Positions 25,322 to 47,981 of a stretch of 47,981 bases of DNA are shown here, in pieces; the first letter of the stretch is position 1, and each line of letters opens with the position of its first letter. Source of the stretch: Verrucomicrobiales bacterium (lineage in GTDB: Bacteria > Verrucomicrobiota > Verrucomicrobiia > Limisphaerales > UBA11320). The notes under the pieces were generated by a model. It saw nothing but the letters and a program-made list of their open reading frames with translations. It was not told the DNA's origin and searched no databases. A program made the translations under genes and the position numbers. The DNA lies in contig JAEUHE010000146.1 in assembly GCA_016793885.1 (NCBI GenBank), forward strand, positions 1-47,981, written 5' to 3'.

Positions 25322-26035
25322 TTAGCAGGGTTCTTTGCCGAAGTATTTAGCCACGGCCTGGCTGCGGGACCGAACGTGCAGGCGCTCGTAGATGCTTTTG
25401 ACGTGGCTGTTGACGGTGGAGAAGCTGATGCCCAGCCGTTCCGCAATTTCCCGATAAGATGCCCCTTTGGAAAGCAGTTCCAGAACCTCGCACTCCCGCG
25501 GGCGGAGCAGGGCGGTGACAGCTTCGCCCTCCGGGCGGATTTCCTGAAAAGATTTCACCACCCTCCGCGCGATCTCGGCGGTCATCGGGGCTCCGCCGGC
25601 GTGAACTTCTTCGAGTGCCGACATGATTCGAGTGGGTTCGGATCTTTTCAGCAGGTAACCGCTGGCTCCCGCCTTGAGCGACTCGAAGATTCGGTCGGTG
25701 TCTTCGTACACCGTCAGCATGAGAAACTGAGTCTGAGTGCACTGGGGTTTCAGATGACGGACACATTCGATGCCCGACATTTTGGGCAGGTTGATGTCGA
25801 CCAGCGCCACGTTAGGCCGGCTCTCTGGAAGGAACCGGAGCGCATGCTCGGCATTGGGATGAACCGAGACGCACCGAAAGCGTGGGAATCCTCCCAGCAG
25901 GGTTTGCAGGCTGTCCCTCAGACCAGAGTCATCCTCAATGATCGAGACAGTGATTTTCGGTGTTGGAAGGTTCACGGAATAGCTGGAACTCATGGTACTG
26001 CTGGGGTGAGGTTGGTGAGAAAAAGTGTTCATCAT
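25322..26035 (-). CDS. LuxR/NarL-family response regulator
   Basis: This codes for 237 residues: an N-terminal receiver domain with acidic pair Glu34-Asp35-Asp36 (SIIEDDSG) and phospho-acceptor Asp80 (VALVDINLPKMSG), Thr and Lys switch residues in FLMLTVYED and GYLLKRSEP, and a C-terminal LuxR-type helix-turn-helix (about 175-230: LRPRECEVLELLSKGASYRE...ISFSTVNSHVKSIYERL). Its ATG overlaps the stop of the sensor kinase gene as ATGA, so the two are partners in one two-component system. ATG at residue 15 is an alternative start. Target genes are not known; the neighbouring secreted Calx-beta gene is a possible one. Confidence 0.93.
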   Translation of the reverse strand: MMNTFSHQPHPSSTMSSSYSVNLPTPKITVSIIEDDSGLRDSLQTLLGGFPRFRCVSVHPNAEHALRFLPESRPNVALVDINLPKMSGIECVRHLKPQCTQTQFLMLTVYEDTDRIFESLKAGASGYLLKRSEPTRIMSALEEVHAGGAPMTAEIARRVVKSFQEIRPEGEAVTALLRPRECEVLELLSKGASYREIAERLGISFSTVNSHVKSIYERLHVRSRSQAVAKYFGKEPC

Positions 26036-29000
26036 CTGGATCCTTCCGTGGGGAGGGGAAACCGGACTTCAATCCGGGTCCCTTGCTTTTTCCGGCTGTC
26101 GAGATCGAAAGAGGCGCCCACGCTTTCGGCACGCTTCCTCATGTTGGCCAGTCCATTGCCTGCCCCGGCGGCGTCCGCGATGTTGAAGCCGTCGCCGTCG
26201 TCGCTGATGACGACGCGGCCCTCCTGTGGACCGTGGCTAAACTCAAGCCGGATGCAGTTGCCGCCGCTGTGCTTCACCGCGTTGTTCAAGGCTTCCTTGG
26301 ATACCAGGAACACGTTGTGACGAAGCTCGGACGTCAGTGGAAGCGGCGGGATGTGTGGGGGCATCTGCAGCTCGAAGCGCAGGCCGGACGGGGTGATGAG
26401 ATCCTGGGCGGACTGGACCAGGTAGCCCGCGAGTTGGTCGAGCGAGTTCTTGCCCGGGCTGACCGCCCAGACAATCTCGTCCAGGCTGCGCACCGCATCC
26501 CGCGCGAGGGCGGAGATCTTGGGGAGTGGGGACCCTTCCCCTGGGTTGGCTTGGAAGCCAGGCGACTCGATCGCCTGGCTAATCATGCCCAGCTGGGTGA
26601 GCCGTGCGCCCAGATCATCGTGCATATCCTTGGCGATGCGCGCGCGCTCTTTTTCCAGGGCGTGCTCCTTTTCGAGCTGTAGGATTTTGCGCTGGGTTTT
26701 CAGACGATAGGACTGAACCGCCATCACGCTCGCCACGATTCCCAGGAGGGACAGGCTCGCGAACCACCAAGTCTGGTGAAAGTAGGGCGCTATGGTGAAG
26801 GTTAGATGACGGTCGATCGGTCCCCAGCGCCCGTGACTGCTGCAAGCGCGGATCTGGAATTCATAGGTGCCGGGGTCCAGATTGGTGTAGTGGGCGATTC
26901 GACGGTCTCCCGCGTCCTGCCAGCCGCGATCATGGCCGATCATGCGGTATTGGAAGCGCACTTTGCTTGGGTCGCCGAACGAGTTGGCCGTATAGCGAAT
27001 CTCCACGACTCCAGCCTGGCCGGCGGGAAATTGGAGATGGAAGGGTTGTTCAGGCCTGGCGCGCTGCTCTTGCCAGCGGCCCTCGCCGGATCGGACCGTG
27101 GGAGGATCCCGATCTGCTCCGTCACCGTAACGTATGACCGCGTTGGCGATGACCTGCTCGACGACCACCGAGGGTCTTCGCTTGTTGACGAGGAAGTCTT
27201 TAGGATCAATTCGGATGAGCCCGTTTCCGCTGGGGAACCAGAGGAGGCCGTCGCGGGATTTCCAACCGGCCGGCTGCGAACCACCGTTGGTCTCAGCGCT
27301 TTGCATGCCCTCGGATTCGCCAAAGGGCATCGAGGTGAGGGCTTCCAGCGTCCCATCCGCCACCTCGCGGGCATCGTCCTTGGAGATTCGGTAGATGCCC
27401 CGATTGCAGCTGATCCAGTAAGAACCGTAATCGTCGGCCACAATTTGATTCACCAGGTTGTCATAAAGCCCCTCCTTCCGGGTCAAGGTGCGGAAGCTTC
27501 CGTTGCGGTGGCGGGCCAGACCGGACGAGGTTCCGATCCACAGGGAGCCGTCCGGTTCCTCCAGAAAGGCGGAGATCTGAAGGTCTTTCAGACCTTCTTT
27601 GCGCCCAAAGTTGGTGAATGTTCCGCCGGTGTAACGGGAGAGTCCATCGCTGTAGGTGCCGATCCAGAGGTTGCCCGCCGCATCCTCGTGGAGGGCCCGG
27701 ATATCATTCCCGGGCAGCCCATTCGTTTTCGTGAAGTGGGTGAGCTTCTCGTTCGACCAGCTGTAAAGCCCATCCAGCATGCCGAACCAGACAGATCCGT
27801 CACGACGTGTGAGGATGCAGCGGGTGTTCAGGTCGTTAGTTGCTTGCAGGCTCAGGCTCGACCGAGGACCGGGGTCCCATCGCGTGCCGTTGAAATGAAA
27901 CAGTCCGTAGCCCGCGTACCCCACCCAGATGCCTCCTCGAGGGTCGGGGACCACCGAGAAGACGAGCCCGTTGGGCATCGAGGAAGGGGGTGGGCCAAAC
28001 GGAGTCAGCTCATTCTGGTGCCAGCGCAGCAGGTTCCGCGAGCTGCCCATCCAGATCGCCCCCTCGCTATCCTCACAGACCGACCACAGGTTATTCTGCA
28101 ATCTGCCACCGGGTGCGATCAGCGTGGCGATGCGATGCTCCTTGATAAACAGCAACCCGTCGAAGCTGGTTCCAGCCCATAGATTGCCCTCGGCGTCCCG
28201 CATCAGCTTCTCCACGGAAGTGAGCCCTGGATGCCGGTGAACTCCAATTTCCTGAGGCTCTTCCCCGGACTTACCAAAAATGGATTGGACCAGCCGCCCG
28301 TCCTCGGCGGTCCACACTCGTCCATGACCGTCGTCCGCGATGGCGAACACCGTGTTGGTGAGAATACCCCCGGAAGACGTTTTGAATCCGCCGATCAGCC
28401 GGGGCAGGTCGTTTTCGACCTTGTAGGCTCCAAATTGGCCGCCGAACCGAATGCTGCCGTCGTCGGGATCTTTGTAGAGGTAGTGGACCCAGCCCACCGC
28501 GTTCGAATAGTCAAACACCATGACGGCCCGGTCCTCCCCCGGGGTCCAGCGCATGACGCGGTATCGGTCCGCCAGCCAGACCCGGCCTCGATCATCTTCC
28601 GCTAGCATCCGGACCGAGCGGACCGCCGGTTTGAAGTCCAGTATGAGGGTCTCCTTGGCTCCGTTCTGATCGAAACGCAGGACCGCACCGTGAACACCCA
28701 CCCACACCCCTCCCTCTTTCGCGGCGCAAACTCCGGTGGGCTGATACTTTCCCAGTTCGGGTCCTCCGGTAATGAACGCCGTCCAGGTATGCTCCTGCCG
28801 GCGCAACAGTCCATTCCGAGCGCAGACCCAGATCGCATGGTCCCGATCTTCCGCCATGCCCAGGATGTGGTCGTCGGTCTCCACCATCAGCGGAAGGCTC
28901 GATTTTTCAAACACCGTAAATCGGACACCGTCGTAACGGGCGAGTCCAAAAACCGTTCCTACCCATACATAGCCATCATGGCTTTGCATCAGGCAGGTGA

Positions 29001-29190
29001 CGTGGTTCTGCGGCAGCCCTTGCTCCACCTTCCACTGCTGCACTCGGTAGCGGGTTGTTAGGTCTCCAAAGGGATGGGTGCCATCGGTTTGCAGCGAGAA
29101 ATCAATCGACCGAGGACTCTGCCCCGAGACGAGTTGCCCCCAGGCGAAGAGAATCGCCAGAAACAACGGGATTTTGAACCTCGGAACCAT
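26032..29190 (-). CDS. large sensor histidine kinase with beta-propeller sensor and Y_Y_Y domain
   Basis: This codes for 1052 residues from ATG 29190, beginning with a signal peptide (MVPRFKIPLFLAILFAWGQL). The periplasmic part (about 40-720) is built of repeated Reg_prop motifs (GYVWVGTVFGLARYDGVRF, NLWAGTSFDGLLF, GNLWIGTYSDGLSRY and others), probably two seven-bladed propellers. A Y_Y_Y domain (about 730-795, FQYRMIGHDRGWQ...PGTYEFQIRA) and one membrane helix (about 803-825) follow. The cytoplasmic kinase is of the HisKA_3 type with His857 (KDMHDDLGARL), then a HATPase with NAVKHSGG, DDGDGF and GNGLANMRKRAE. Such sensors often respond to glycans in Bacteroidota; the ligand here is unknown. 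The longer start at 29229 lacks the signal peptide at its tip. Confidence 0.92.
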   Translation of the reverse strand: MVPRFKIPLFLAILFAWGQLVSGQSPRSIDFSLQTDGTHPFGDLTTRYRVQQWKVEQGLPQNHVTCLMQSHDGYVWVGTVFGLARYDGVRFTVFEKSSLPLMVETDDHILGMAEDRDHAIWVCARNGLLRRQEHTWTAFITGGPELGKYQPTGVCAAKEGGVWVGVHGAVLRFDQNGAKETLILDFKPAVRSVRMLAEDDRGRVWLADRYRVMRWTPGEDRAVMVFDYSNAVGWVHYLYKDPDDGSIRFGGQFGAYKVENDLPRLIGGFKTSSGGILTNTVFAIADDGHGRVWTAEDGRLVQSIFGKSGEEPQEIGVHRHPGLTSVEKLMRDAEGNLWAGTSFDGLLFIKEHRIATLIAPGGRLQNNLWSVCEDSEGAIWMGSSRNLLRWHQNELTPFGPPPSSMPNGLVFSVVPDPRGGIWVGYAGYGLFHFNGTRWDPGPRSSLSLQATNDLNTRCILTRRDGSVWFGMLDGLYSWSNEKLTHFTKTNGLPGNDIRALHEDAAGNLWIGTYSDGLSRYTGGTFTNFGRKEGLKDLQISAFLEEPDGSLWIGTSSGLARHRNGSFRTLTRKEGLYDNLVNQIVADDYGSYWISCNRGIYRISKDDAREVADGTLEALTSMPFGESEGMQSAETNGGSQPAGWKSRDGLLWFPSGNGLIRIDPKDFLVNKRRPSVVVEQVIANAVIRYGDGADRDPPTVRSGEGRWQEQRARPEQPFHLQFPAGQAGVVEIRYTANSFGDPSKVRFQYRMIGHDRGWQDAGDRRIAHYTNLDPGTYEFQIRACSSHGRWGPIDRHLTFTIAPYFHQTWWFASLSLLGIVASVMAVQSYRLKTQRKILQLEKEHALEKERARIAKDMHDDLGARLTQLGMISQAIESPGFQANPGEGSPLPKISALARDAVRSLDEIVWAVSPGKNSLDQLAGYLVQSAQDLITPSGLRFELQMPPHIPPLPLTSELRHNVFLVSKEALNNAVKHSGGNCIRLEFSHGPQEGRVVISDDGDGFNIADAAGAGNGLANMRKRAESVGASFDLDSRKKQGTRIEVRFPLPTEGSR

Positions 29191-43823: not shown

Positions 43824-45665
43824 CTAGTTTGCGCCGCTGACGGCTGCCGGTTCCTTCGCCTTGGGCTTGGGCTCCTTCGGTGTGCTGACGGGATCCAGCG
43901 GGGGAACCGCGATATCATAATAGCCAATGAACATCTCGTCGGTCGTCTGCTCGCCGAAAACCACCCATTGCTTGGGATCGGGATTGGCCGGGTTGCCGAT
44001 CGAGTTGTCAAATGTTCCTGAGCAAACGAGTTGGGCGCCGGCAGGGACCGAAATAGGCTCCTTAAGCTTGTAGAGCGACTGCCAGGCGAAATCCCAGCGG
44101 GGCACGGAGAGCAGAGTCTCTGACTTGCCATCGGGGTAGATCAGCTCGTATTTGAAGGAAGCTCCACGGACGTGCATGTGGGGGCTCAAGTTGTGGAGGA
44201 CCGCCGGCTTGCGAAACTTGTAGCTGGCTTTTGCTGGATAATCCCGAGCCCCCGGTGGAATGCCTAGGTCTTGCTGGGTGACGGCCCTGGTTCGAAGCTC
44301 ATATTGAGGTTTCTCCTTGGAGAGATACAGGCCGAGTTGGGTGAGATCACGCTCCTCCTTGCCGGCGGCCGCGTAGTGCATCTGGAAAACGAATTTGGTT
44401 CCTTTGGGCAGAAACTTGGCCGTGCCCTCCGGGAAAGGAACCGGCTCGGCTCCCGGAACAAATCCGGCGAAATAGCCCGCCGTCCCTGCATTTTGACGGG
44501 GTTCGATGGACTTCAGCGCTTCTGGATATTTCACGAAAATCAACGCATGATGCAGCACTTTGGAATTCCCCGGCTTGATTGACGTGGCTTTCACCCAAGA
44601 ATCCTCGGCAAGCGGCGAATCGATGACGAAGTATTGATAGGGAATGACACCGGTCGCGGGTACCACAAATTCCTTCGGCATGGAAACCACCACATCGGGC
44701 TTGCCCAGCGGCCATTCGGCAGGAGTCGGTGGCTGGTGAGTGGCCAGCGGATCCTCTCCCTCTCCGCGTGGCGATCCCTGAGCAATCCAACCCAGAAGGG
44801 TTTGCGTCTCCTCAACGCTGAGGAACCTCGGGTTAGCAAAGTGTCCGACCTGAGGATCGGCGGGCCATGGGGGCATCCGCTGCTCCAAGAGGACTTCCCG
44901 GATCATGGCTGACCAGCCCTTGACCTTCTCGTAGTTGGGCATGGTAAAGGGGCCGATGTTTCCGGGACTGTGACAGCTTACGCAGCTCTTCTGCAGGATG
45001 GGAGCCACGTCTTTGGTATAAGTGATCGAGGCTTTTTCGGCCGGGGCGGGATAGGTGATGGCGCAGCCTCGAACTTCAGTTTCCGGATGGGTCACCGGCT
45101 TGTCGGCCAGGCATTCGCGGAGGGCGTCGGCCAGCGGCGTCTTCTCGGCTTTCGGTTTTTGCGTCCCATAGCCCAGCCGGTCATCGATTTGTCCGCGATA
45201 CACGACTTTCCAAGTCTTGGTATCGATCGCGATCGCCTCAGCAGTACGATGGATGTTCAGGTTCTTCGAGACCCATTGGCCCCGGTCGAGAAGAATCGGG
45301 AAATCGATGCTGAACTCGGTTGCCTCTTTCTGCACCGCCGCCCGGTCGTCCTGCGGATTTGAGTTGAGGATCCAAAATTCTACCCCCTGGCTGGAGAACT
45401 CCTTCTCCAGTTCGTTGAGGGTGCCAATGCTTTGGCGCACGATGGGACAGCCGTTTCCTCCTACAAACAGCACCACCAACCGGGCCTGCTTCTGACGGTA
45501 GAGCTCTCGGGATGTGCCGGTGTGGTCGATCAGATGAAAATTGTCGACCTTCCCCGGCGAGGTCAAATCGCGCGCCCCCTGCAGGTTCGTAGCGAGTGAT
45601 ATCCCCAGGCACACTCCGGAGAGCAGGCGGGGATTCAAGGGAAAGAGTGTTCTGATTGTCATCAT
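43824..45665 (-). CDS. redoxin - cytochrome c - copper monooxygenase-like fusion protein
   Basis: This codes for a 613-residue exported protein (signal peptide about 1-31). Residues about 35-190 are a thioredoxin/AhpC-TSA-like redoxin with a single active-site Cys73 (GGNGCPIVRQ; the second Cys of a CXXC is absent). About 212-330 is a haem-binding segment with CVSCH at 228-232 and a MPPWP (distal Met) motif. About 335-600 resembles the copper type II monooxygenase (PHM/DBM-like) domain, with LHHALIFVK, FQMHY and SPHMHVRG copper-ligand-like histidines and the C-terminal QLVCSGTFDNS. It probably acts in the periplasm in electron transfer and oxidation of an unknown substrate. It is monocistronic, convergent with the Nif3 gene. 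Confidence 0.85.
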   Translation of the reverse strand: MMTIRTLFPLNPRLLSGVCLGISLATNLQGARDLTSPGKVDNFHLIDHTGTSRELYRQKQARLVVLFVGGNGCPIVRQSIGTLNELEKEFSSQGVEFWILNSNPQDDRAAVQKEATEFSIDFPILLDRGQWVSKNLNIHRTAEAIAIDTKTWKVVYRGQIDDRLGYGTQKPKAEKTPLADALRECLADKPVTHPETEVRGCAITYPAPAEKASITYTKDVAPILQKSCVSCHSPGNIGPFTMPNYEKVKGWSAMIREVLLEQRMPPWPADPQVGHFANPRFLSVEETQTLLGWIAQGSPRGEGEDPLATHQPPTPAEWPLGKPDVVVSMPKEFVVPATGVIPYQYFVIDSPLAEDSWVKATSIKPGNSKVLHHALIFVKYPEALKSIEPRQNAGTAGYFAGFVPGAEPVPFPEGTAKFLPKGTKFVFQMHYAAAGKEERDLTQLGLYLSKEKPQYELRTRAVTQQDLGIPPGARDYPAKASYKFRKPAVLHNLSPHMHVRGASFKYELIYPDGKSETLLSVPRWDFAWQSLYKLKEPISVPAGAQLVCSGTFDNSIGNPANPDPKQWVVFGEQTTDEMFIGYYDIAVPPLDPVSTPKEPKPKAKEPAAVSGAN

Positions 45666-45910: not shown

Positions 45911-47956
45911 CTAGGCTTCTCCTATCTTCCGCTTCAGATTTGAGTGGAAATTACCCAAGGGAAACTCGTCATTCTCAACCAACCCGATCCATTTGGCAGG
46001 GTCCGCCTCGTTGTCGATCAATCGTCCCTCTCGCTTCCAACGGGAAGCCACGTTGGGCCGAACATATTTTGTGATCAGGTCATGGGCTTCGATCCAGAAC
46101 GTCAGCTTCGAGCAGGTGGCGCCTAATCGGTAGAGCGAGGCGATCTCACGCCGGAGTTCTTCGATTGACGACGGTAGTTGTTCCCAGGCAATGCGCAGGG
46201 TGTTGTCGCACCATTGCAGGACGTCCTTTTCATGAAGAAATGCGAAGAGAAGCTGTCCGGCCAGGCCGTCGTAATTCTTGATCCGGCTACCGACGATGGG
46301 GAATCGGAACAGGCGGTCCAGCAGGATGGCGTAGGGAACGTACTCCGCGAAATGGAATCCCTCCTTGGCCAGGTGGTGCGCTTCGCTGAAGCTGCGAAGA
46401 TCGACCCGCAGTTCCTCCAGGGCATACATCCAGAAGGGAGCGCGCTGGCGGATCATGAACGGGTCGAAGGGCAACTCCCCCAGACTGTGCGAACGATCAT
46501 GGATCAGGTCCCAAAGGGCGACCGTATCCTCCAGGGTAGGCAGGGAACTGAGCAGGCATTCGAGATTGGGTGGGGTCGGCAGGCTGACGGCTTCGATCGC
46601 GTGCTTCGCATAACGCTGCAGCCGCAGCGCTTCTCGGTCGCAAAAGATTGTGGCGAAGTGGTTTGAGCTCTTGCCGGCGACTGCGATGGTTTCCGGGAAA
46701 AGGACGGCGCACTCGCTCTGATATCCTCGGGTGTGATCCACTAGGTGTCCGGGCGCGAATTTCGCGTTGGGATAACGCTCGCGCTCCAGCCGGGCCAGCC
46801 AGTCGGGCCAGGGCATTCGCATGATCAACGTCTCAAAGCGTGTCTGCAGCGAGGCATTCGGTGTGTACAGCGGGAAAAGCACGAAATGCTCAATCTGGTC
46901 TTGGCGATGCCGTTCGGGATGGAAGGCCGACAGCGATTTCTGGAAGTCGGGTTTGCGGTATCCTTCGGAGCGCCAGCGGTCCAGATCCTCGCGCAATTGT
47001 TCGAGGTATTCCTTTTGATGTGGGAAAAACTGGGCCAACTCGGGGAGGTGACCAAGGATCTGCTCGGTGAGCTTGCCGGCTGTTTCGTGGAATGAGGCGG
47101 GCACGCTTCCATCGGGCTGTTGCAGCAGACTCAGCCCATTCACGCTTTCGCGCATGGACTTCCAATGACCGGATCTCGCGGCTTCGCTGGGGGGCTTGGG
47201 CAAATTATTGCGTTGGAACCGGGGGACGGCCAGCCACTGGAAGCAATTCAGCCAGAGTGCTTGATGATTGGGATCGGTCAGATAGTCATCGCCGAACAGC
47301 AGAGAGTCGGTCACCAGGAGCACTCGGCCGTCCTCAGCCTGGCTAGCTCCCAAAAGTCCCGCCCGGGCCGGATGGGCTTGGGCCGACGCCTGGAGAACGA
47401 TTTCCGCGGAACCCGAGACAGTAATATACCCAGCCTGATAAAAGCAGACGGTGCTCACTCCCGTGGTCAGCGACCGACTCAAAGGAGAGCCGGAGGCCTC
47501 GCTCAAAACCCAGGTGGGATTGCGGTTGGCGCAACGAACGCGGTCCAACACCGTGCCATTCCGAATCGTCAGGCCAAAGGGCTCGAGCAGCTCGTTGAGA
47601 TTATCCCCGTACTTGTCATGTTCATATTCCGTGATCACCAGCAAAGCCCCGCCGCGCCTGACAAAGTCCTGAATATCTCGGATCTCTTCGGGGCTCAGTC
47701 GCGGCGAGTTTTGGCTGACGGTTCTCTCCCAGCGCGGGTCGCAGGGATGGACCAGAGCCAGAATGTCGACTCCCTCCAGTCGATCCCTCGTCAGGGCGTG
47801 ATGGAGATTTCTCTCCACCAGGAAGCCTCGCTCCTTCAGAAGTCCGGCTGCGGCCTGGTAGGAAGAGTATTCCGGGTAGTCCGGGCTGATCTCGATGGCC
47901 TTCTCGCGCGAAGTCGACCAGCTCTCATTGTGGGTCTCATCAAAGAGAACCTTCAC
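45911..47956 (-). CDS. GATase/ThuA-like plus DUF6421-like fusion protein
   Basis: This codes for 681 residues from GTG 47956, 25 bases from the window edge. The first 240 residues (MKVLFDETHNESW, VDILALVHPCDPRW, GGALLVITEYEHDKYGDNL, DGRVLLVTDSLLFGDDYL) form a class I glutamine amidotransferase/ThuA or DUF4350-like fold; no nucleophilic Cys is evident. The remaining part (HPERHRQDQIEHFVLFPLYT, FETLIMRMPWPDWLARLERE, SECAVLFPETIAVAG, ...) resembles the uncharacterised DUF6421 family of actinobacteria, from memory. The fusion is unusual and its function is unknown. No transmembrane segment or signal peptide is seen. No further gene in the window shares its operon. Confidence 0.65.
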   Translation of the reverse strand: MKVLFDETHNESWSTSREKAIEISPDYPEYSSYQAAAGLLKERGFLVERNLHHALTRDRLEGVDILALVHPCDPRWERTVSQNSPRLSPEEIRDIQDFVRRGGALLVITEYEHDKYGDNLNELLEPFGLTIRNGTVLDRVRCANRNPTWVLSEASGSPLSRSLTTGVSTVCFYQAGYITVSGSAEIVLQASAQAHPARAGLLGASQAEDGRVLLVTDSLLFGDDYLTDPNHQALWLNCFQWLAVPRFQRNNLPKPPSEAARSGHWKSMRESVNGLSLLQQPDGSVPASFHETAGKLTEQILGHLPELAQFFPHQKEYLEQLREDLDRWRSEGYRKPDFQKSLSAFHPERHRQDQIEHFVLFPLYTPNASLQTRFETLIMRMPWPDWLARLERERYPNAKFAPGHLVDHTRGYQSECAVLFPETIAVAGKSSNHFATIFCDREALRLQRYAKHAIEAVSLPTPPNLECLLSSLPTLEDTVALWDLIHDRSHSLGELPFDPFMIRQRAPFWMYALEELRVDLRSFSEAHHLAKEGFHFAEYVPYAILLDRLFRFPIVGSRIKNYDGLAGQLLFAFLHEKDVLQWCDNTLRIAWEQLPSSIEELRREIASLYRLGATCSKLTFWIEAHDLITKYVRPNVASRWKREGRLIDNEADPAKWIGLVENDEFPLGNFHSNLKRKIGEA

Positions 47957-47981
47957 CCGGCGAAGCTTTGAGTCGCCATTC

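Follow-up and report, generated by a model that had tools for sequence, protein, structure and literature searches.

The window (the whole stretch of DNA that was analysed, 47,981 nucleotides) ends in a reverse-strand gene at 45911..47956, which encodes a fusion of a GIFT domain with a DUF6421 domain. Open reading frame analysis gave 681 amino acids from a GTG; the frame has 689 codons before the stop and continues unbroken up to the edge of the window. Another contig from this genome, C235, begins with an exact copy of the window's last 141 bases (47841..47981, a sequence match with no strand assigned), and the frame extended through C235 reaches a possible ATG, the first two bases of which lie past the window end. 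The coding sequence thus probably extends to an ATG straddling the window end, and the protein probably begins MNGDSKLRRVKVLFDETH... and comprises 690 residues. C235 also carries a threonine-aldolase gene (C235:164-1222; PF01212, 2.2e-52; L-threonine aldolase 5vye, 3.1e-119) on the same strand as the fusion and upstream of it, with its stop 20 nt from the fusion-gene ATG, and the two genes form a probable operon. The preliminary description had advised looking past the window edge for partner genes, which is where this aldolase was found, and had called the fusion a stand-alone gene, a label that the neighbour overturns.

On the other side, the downstream neighbour (43824-45665, reverse strand) has an N-terminal redoxin domain by Pfam, followed by a CxxCH stretch; past the redoxin domain Pfam gives nothing at 1e-5, and the remainder presumably resembles a copper type II monooxygenase. 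Elsewhere in the window, 26032-29190 (reverse strand) encodes a large histidine kinase with a two-component regulator propeller (Reg_prop, Y_Y_Y).

Domains and metal motif of the fusion protein

The N-terminal domain covers residues ~1-250 (47207..47956, reverse strand) and was delimited by Pfam, model fold, and profile. Pfam matched DUF4350 at residues 82-238 (E 7.6e-10, 39.8 bits against a cut-off of 30.4), in keeping with the DUF4350-type label first given to it, while IFT52_GIFT (E 1.1e-5, 25.0 bits, cut-off 27.2) and, in the N-terminal third, ABC_transp_aux matched below their cut-offs. DUF4350 was matched by 41 of 47 homologues scanned, the remaining six being rows entered without the N-terminal part. 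An AlphaFold2 model built from an alignment of 47 homologues, 41 of them with the N-terminal half, reached pLDDT 91.3 and pTM 0.90, and in model comparison its N-terminal part matched the IFT52 GIFT structure 5fmr with Z 27.7 (rmsd 2.1, 217 aligned) and the ThuA-like 1t0b with Z 15.9; a profile/HMM comparison also related it to IFT52 GIFT in sequence (E 4.1e-13). The model thus identifies the domain as GIFT, the nearer family, with ThuA a fold-level relative, so that the earlier GATase/ThuA label stands for the fold and gives way to GIFT for the family.

Residues invariant in 17 aligned GIFT homologues include H9, W13, H70, E77, Y173, D217, S218, and D223. As to the nucleophile cysteine of class I glutamine amidotransferases, no cysteine is invariant in these 17 rows; C171 is almost so and lies outside the conserved ~102-119 region, with the nucleophile elbow placed by eye. 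Median identity to the window protein over 40 rows is 38% for GIFT versus 45% for the DUF6421 part, suggesting a domain that is constrained but drifts faster than its partner.

The C-terminal half, on which the preliminary description had staked its proposal of a GATase-like domain fused to DUF6421, matches the DUF6421 profile at residues 264-679 (45920..47167, reverse strand) with E 1.1e-136 and 456.5 bits against a cut-off of 25, as do all 47 homologues scanned; together with the model fold, this bears out the two-domain architecture. The description of DUF6421 as uncharacterised has been overtaken, as PolE, a member of the family, is an Fe/pterin-dependent L-Ile desaturase of polyoxin biosynthesis (Nat Chem 2025) that introduces a C3-C4 double bond into L-Ile and whose structures have been solved (PMC12614342). 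The same paper puts DUF6421/PolE homologues at about 10,000. In the literature searched it alone mentions DUF6421, PolE being the sole member with activity found in print, and in its main text, supplements aside, aldolase, GIFT, or fusion do not occur.

Compared with PolE (9j2e), the C-terminal part of the model gave Z 32.6 (rmsd 3.5, 358 aligned, ~22% identity; Foldseek was also run), indicating a PolE-like fold. Dipeptidyl peptidase III (DPP III) chains are fold matches too (6eom, Z 18.1), and one could accordingly read DUF6421 as a zinc peptidase-like protein and the fusion as a peptide-processing protein; we consider this exceedingly improbable, given that PolE is far closer and that DUF6421 proteins do not conserve the HExxGH motif or the catalytic His of DPP III (PMC12614342).

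The window protein carries the metal motif HDRSH-x23-E at 486-514. HDRSH (residues 486-490; 46487..46501, reverse strand), an instance of the HE/DxxH motif, aligns with PolE HExxH and supplies two predicted iron ligands, H486 and H490; the predicted third, E514 (46415..46417, reverse strand), follows H490 at x23 and aligns with the PolE LEELRVD stretch, in which, judged by spacing, Glu230 should fall. Tested as HE/DxxHx(21-23)E for the family, the motif occurs as H[DE]xxHx23E in 47 of 47 aligned rows. In a profile alignment read by eye, the invariant F420 and Y562 align with PolE F140 and Y280, the residues mutated in deposited structures, and the PolE Y157 column varies among homologues. With the motif and the F140/Y280 equivalents kept and the Y157 column variable, the metal centre should be functional and the substrate may differ from that of PolE.

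Distribution of fused and stand-alone DUF6421

Two samples describe the distribution, 57 loci from a GTDB genome scan and 10 from an even actinobacterial draw, with the window locus and plasmid loci counted apart. The GTDB scan used six query peptides from the whole fusion, some within GIFT, and is therefore biased to fusions and does not give a frequency: of its loci, 13 verrucomicrobial and 44 actinobacterial by record title, the GIFT part was present in 48, with six stand-alone and three cut by a contig end. One scan locus, L066, has the GIFT part only. The even draw found DUF6421 in 10 of 198 actinobacterial genomes, the Janibacter centre genome included, at 12 places, of which 10 were examined as loci alongside the Janibacter locus L025 and one (L096, a weak, partial match of 50 bits) was left out; two of the 11 full-length places are fused and nine stand-alone. 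Species overlap between the two samples was compared for Janibacter. A draw of 288 Verrucomicrobiota genomes yielded DUF6421 in one, the window's own, and all four other genomes searched in the window's genus have it, one as a fragment. The GIFT-DUF6421 fusion thus recurs in Verrucomicrobiota and Actinomycetota, and is neither a single curiosity nor a departure from a family of purely stand-alone proteins, as it had seemed at first.

It had also been suggested that the fusion might reveal a partner that other genomes encode separately. A GIFT profile search of 30 DUF6421 genomes matched 17, each at the fusion, the 13 non-matching genomes being those with stand-alone DUF6421; no separate GIFT gene was found at E 0.001 in any of these 13, where scoring took in 89 of the 92-148 first-look candidates in each of six large genomes (G069, G073, G097, G202, G235, and G267). 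Three genomes (G063, G004, and G059) have one extra weak GIFT match each (E 4.3e-7 to 1.2e-4). The recurring partners of DUF6421 are a threonine aldolase and often a short-chain dehydrogenase/reductase (SDR), not a split GIFT gene. In a quick DUF6421 tree, from which three short and three truncated rows were excluded and to which L066 contributed none, the 16 stand-alone rows come together as a single group of modest support (SH-aLRT 81) within the fused rows; this fits a single loss of GIFT in the stand-alone group, on a tree whose outgroup branches are saturated and whose root is unsure.

Plasmid records added three close homologues (Nonomuraea, Tsukamurella, and Paenarthrobacter), all with the aldolase, and several distant ones. 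On a plasmid of Streptomyces sp. KN37 (L117), a distant DUF6421 gene lies beside NRPS, flavin reductase, and cytochrome P450 genes and could possibly catalyse a PolE-like step within a natural-product cluster. Outside Actinomycetota, distant DUF6421 genes occur on two Pantoea plasmids (L115 and L119), with an ATP-grasp gene and an EamA transporter gene nearby, and on a Staphylococcus xylosus plasmid (L118).

Threonine aldolase and other linked genes

A same-strand aldolase lies within 2 kb of DUF6421 in 42 of the 44 actinobacterial GTDB-scan loci, and at the two misses (L038 and L053) the contig ends within 200 bases downstream. It is found at 10 of the 11 full-length places of the even draw (nine of the 10 examined loci plus the Janibacter locus L025); L098, the second DUF6421 copy of genome G082, retains the SDR and has an adjoining aldolase match of 88 residues only, as if the aldolase had decayed. 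Seven of the 13 verrucomicrobial scan loci have the aldolase, in every case upstream, as does the window locus, and none was found within 2 kb in the other six (L014, L017, L019, L020, L049, and L066). L017 and L019 lack it despite flanks of 3.3-10 kb on both sides, and hence the linkage is not required everywhere. The gene order differs between phyla, with the aldolase first in Verrucomicrobiota and last in Actinomycetota, where 4-base stop/start overlaps occur in many loci. This tie to a threonine aldolase is common to the fusion and its stand-alone relatives. Across 28 DUF6421 genomes, aldolases of this family are rare, at one or two matches per genome, and one adjoins DUF6421 in all 28, a count that bears on copy number only, since 17 of the 28 were chosen from loci already known to have the aldolase.

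The five far relatives (Nocardia, two Pantoea, Streptomyces KN37, and Staphylococcus) have no aldolase listed within ~6 kb, in gene tables that are incomplete and with one record beginning at the DUF6421 gene itself, and an aldolase profile search of the five stretches gave no full-length match. Conversely, aldolases in or near the actinobacterial operon clade occur away from DUF6421, namely the second copy of G097 and a 55% identical one from a Gordonia plasmid, the record of which has no DUF6421 match. On the Gordonia polyisoprenivorans plasmid p174 (L128), a succinic semialdehyde dehydrogenase gene lies ~3 kb downstream of an operon-type aldolase without DUF6421.

The aldolase tree (57 of 71 rows, with 14 near-copies or truncated rows removed by hand) groups the verrucomicrobial operon copies with aldolases not adjacent to DUF6421 (SH-aLRT 99), apart from the actinobacterial copies (99), and the window genome's second aldolase (contig C86) falls among the group of the verrucomicrobial operon copies. 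Placing the operon aldolases of both phyla in a single clade was rejected (log-likelihood 77 lower, p-AU 2.55e-5; L109 constrained with the operon rows), in a test on a quick tree with the tested group defined after the tree was seen. The pairing of aldolase and DUF6421 therefore probably arose twice, on good but not final evidence, and two acquisitions in different gene orders are most simply explained by a metabolite shared by both enzymes.

These two apparently separate recruitments, together with the stop/start overlaps, speak against taking DUF6421 as an Fe/pterin desaturase or hydroxylase in its own right beside an aldolase of general threonine and glycine metabolism. Such a loose association would accommodate the six aldolase-free verrucomicrobial loci, the five far relatives, and the similar aldolases that exist without DUF6421; weighing both sides, we find it distinctly improbable. 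The gene linkage of aldolase and DUF6421 offers much of the DUF6421 subfamily a specific reaction partner that can be put to the test, and from it the subfamily is predicted to produce beta-hydroxy amino acids.

Further genes accompany the pair in part of the loci. An SDR, always from the same family, comes next in 16 of the 44 actinobacterial scan loci and in 10 of 10 even-draw loci, frequently with stop/start overlaps; it was found in none of the 13 verrucomicrobial loci and is also absent from the window locus. Its GGWxG stretch, invariant in 16 rows, recalls, as we take it, quinonoid dihydropteridine reductase (QDPR). The PDB matches listed for the SDR are generic SDRs, and with QDPR absent among the matches listed, we rejected the SDR as a proven QDPR; it is a putative pterin-recycling enzyme. 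Carbinolamine dehydratase is encoded in 28 of 30 DUF6421 genomes, the exceptions G064 and G068 having kept fusion and aldolase with no dehydratase match, and classical Biopterin_H in six of 30. In the even draw the dehydratase is found in 10 of 10 DUF6421 genomes versus 105 of 188 others (Fisher p 0.0037, with genome size as a confounder); with a background of 115 of 198, we rejected this co-occurrence as too weak to prove pterin use, which it weakly backs.

In eight of the 44 actinobacterial loci (L034, L036, L040, L041, L043, L045, L052, and L062, from Microbacteriaceae or other actinobacterial MAGs), DUF6421 and the aldolase are separated by a gene for an Lrp/AsnC-type regulator, the effector of which may be the amino acid of the DUF6421-aldolase pathway. 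A gene of succinic semialdehyde dehydrogenase (SSADH) type, for which SSADH is the best NCBIfam match, below cut-off, lies divergently within 1.5 kb in six Janibacter loci; the Tsukamurella plasmid has a close relative of this Janibacter gene (E about 1e-180) two genes upstream, with gabT upstream too, and the Paenarthrobacter locus an agmatinase gene. These neighbours are suggestive, and only suggestive, of a C4 aldehyde and hence of a lysine- or aminoadipate-like substrate.

Proposed reaction and comparison with known systems

Starting from what was computed (domains, fold, metal motif, gene linkage, and two aldolase lineages), we propose, with a probability of about 0.6, that the fusion is a non-haem iron, tetrahydropterin-dependent amino-acid oxygenase in a pathway of beta-hydroxylation followed by aldolase cleavage to glycine and an aldehyde. 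The PolE-like DUF6421 domain would hydroxylate a free amino acid at its beta-carbon, presumably with a pterin, and the PLP-dependent threonine aldolase, if it runs in the cleavage direction as we infer, would cleave the hydroxylated product to glycine and an aldehyde. The SDR, where present, would recycle the pterin or convert the hydroxy or aldehyde product, and the GIFT domain, permanently attached, would probably bind a ligand or fix the oxygenase assembly in a non-catalytic role. Beta-hydroxylation is plausible because the C3-C4 desaturation of L-Ile by PolE already attacks the same region, and since threonine aldolases either consume or produce beta-hydroxy alpha-amino acids, a C3-hydroxylating PolE relative would be expected to supply such a substrate. 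As a counterpoint, PolE desaturates rather than hydroxylates, and it is only ~22% identical over the aligned fold. In a search for literature joining threonine aldolase with pterin-dependent enzymes or PolE, no such pair appeared in titles and the beginnings of abstracts.

Threonine aldolases are reversible, and the same genes could hence work in the opposite order, with the aldolase joining glycine and an aldehyde into a beta-hydroxy amino acid, DUF6421 desaturating or oxidising it, and the SDR oxidising the hydroxyl, to make an unusual amino acid. The aldolase-first order in Verrucomicrobiota would suit this sequence of steps, and the aldolase-last order in Actinomycetota speaks against it. 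PolE itself serves a natural-product pathway by desaturating an amino acid, and the authors of the PolE study anticipate unusual amino acids from the DUF6421 family (PMC12614342). The single DUF6421 match found in each of 19 genomes, and the occurrence of the family in two 1.4 Mb assemblies (MAGs, possibly incomplete), look rather like core metabolism, an appearance that the two DUF6421 matches in two of the 10 positive even-draw genomes run counter to. On balance, we judge the biosynthetic order unlikely.

For hydroxylation followed by cleavage, a lysine- or aminoadipate-like amino acid yielding a C4 semialdehyde is a weak guess at the substrate. Elaborated further, the pathway might be a recurrent degradation or salvage route in which Fe/pterin beta-hydroxylation and retro-aldol release of glycine feed a C4 semialdehyde into the GABA/succinate pathway, with GIFT as a substrate or regulatory module; we hold this full version to be quite unlikely. 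If true, it would represent a second, unrelated pterin-dependent amino-acid hydroxylase family in bacterial core metabolism.

Known systems offer partial parallels. In the carnitine route, TML is beta-hydroxylated and HTML aldolase then yields glycine and an aldehyde, the same two-step logic, with cleavage partly by threonine aldolases, as HTML aldolase is a side activity of these enzymes and of SHMT (PMC8085414). TML hydroxylase (EC 1.14.11.8), unlike the proposed DUF6421 chemistry, belongs to the pterin-independent 2-oxoglutarate class. The partner hydroxylase of GntG is likewise a 2-oxoglutarate enzyme. GntG, of guanitoxin biosynthesis, shares the retro-aldol cleavage and is the best NCBIfam match, below cut-off, of the three aldolases scanned, while belonging to a different cluster (PMC10367076). 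For the N-terminal domain, the likeness is to the GIFT domains of the IFT52 N-terminal domain and OST48/Wbp1, through the IFT52 5fmr fold and the HMM match; unlike these, the window GIFT is attached to a bacterial oxygenase domain and has invariants of its own (H9, W13, H70, E77, and Y173). The closest system is PolE (SnPolE, 9j2e), with which the window protein shares the DUF6421 family, the fold over 358 residues, HE/DxxHx23E, and equivalents of F140 and Y280. It differs in the low identity, in the Y157 column, which is not conserved, in the tie of its gene to threonine aldolase, and in length, as the PolE chains of known structure, at 373 and 391 aa, are too short to hold a GIFT domain. By profile, fold, and metal motif, the window protein appears to be a variant form within the recently recognised PolE-type Fe/pterin family, marked by its GIFT domain and by a tie to a threonine aldolase that stand-alone relatives also have.
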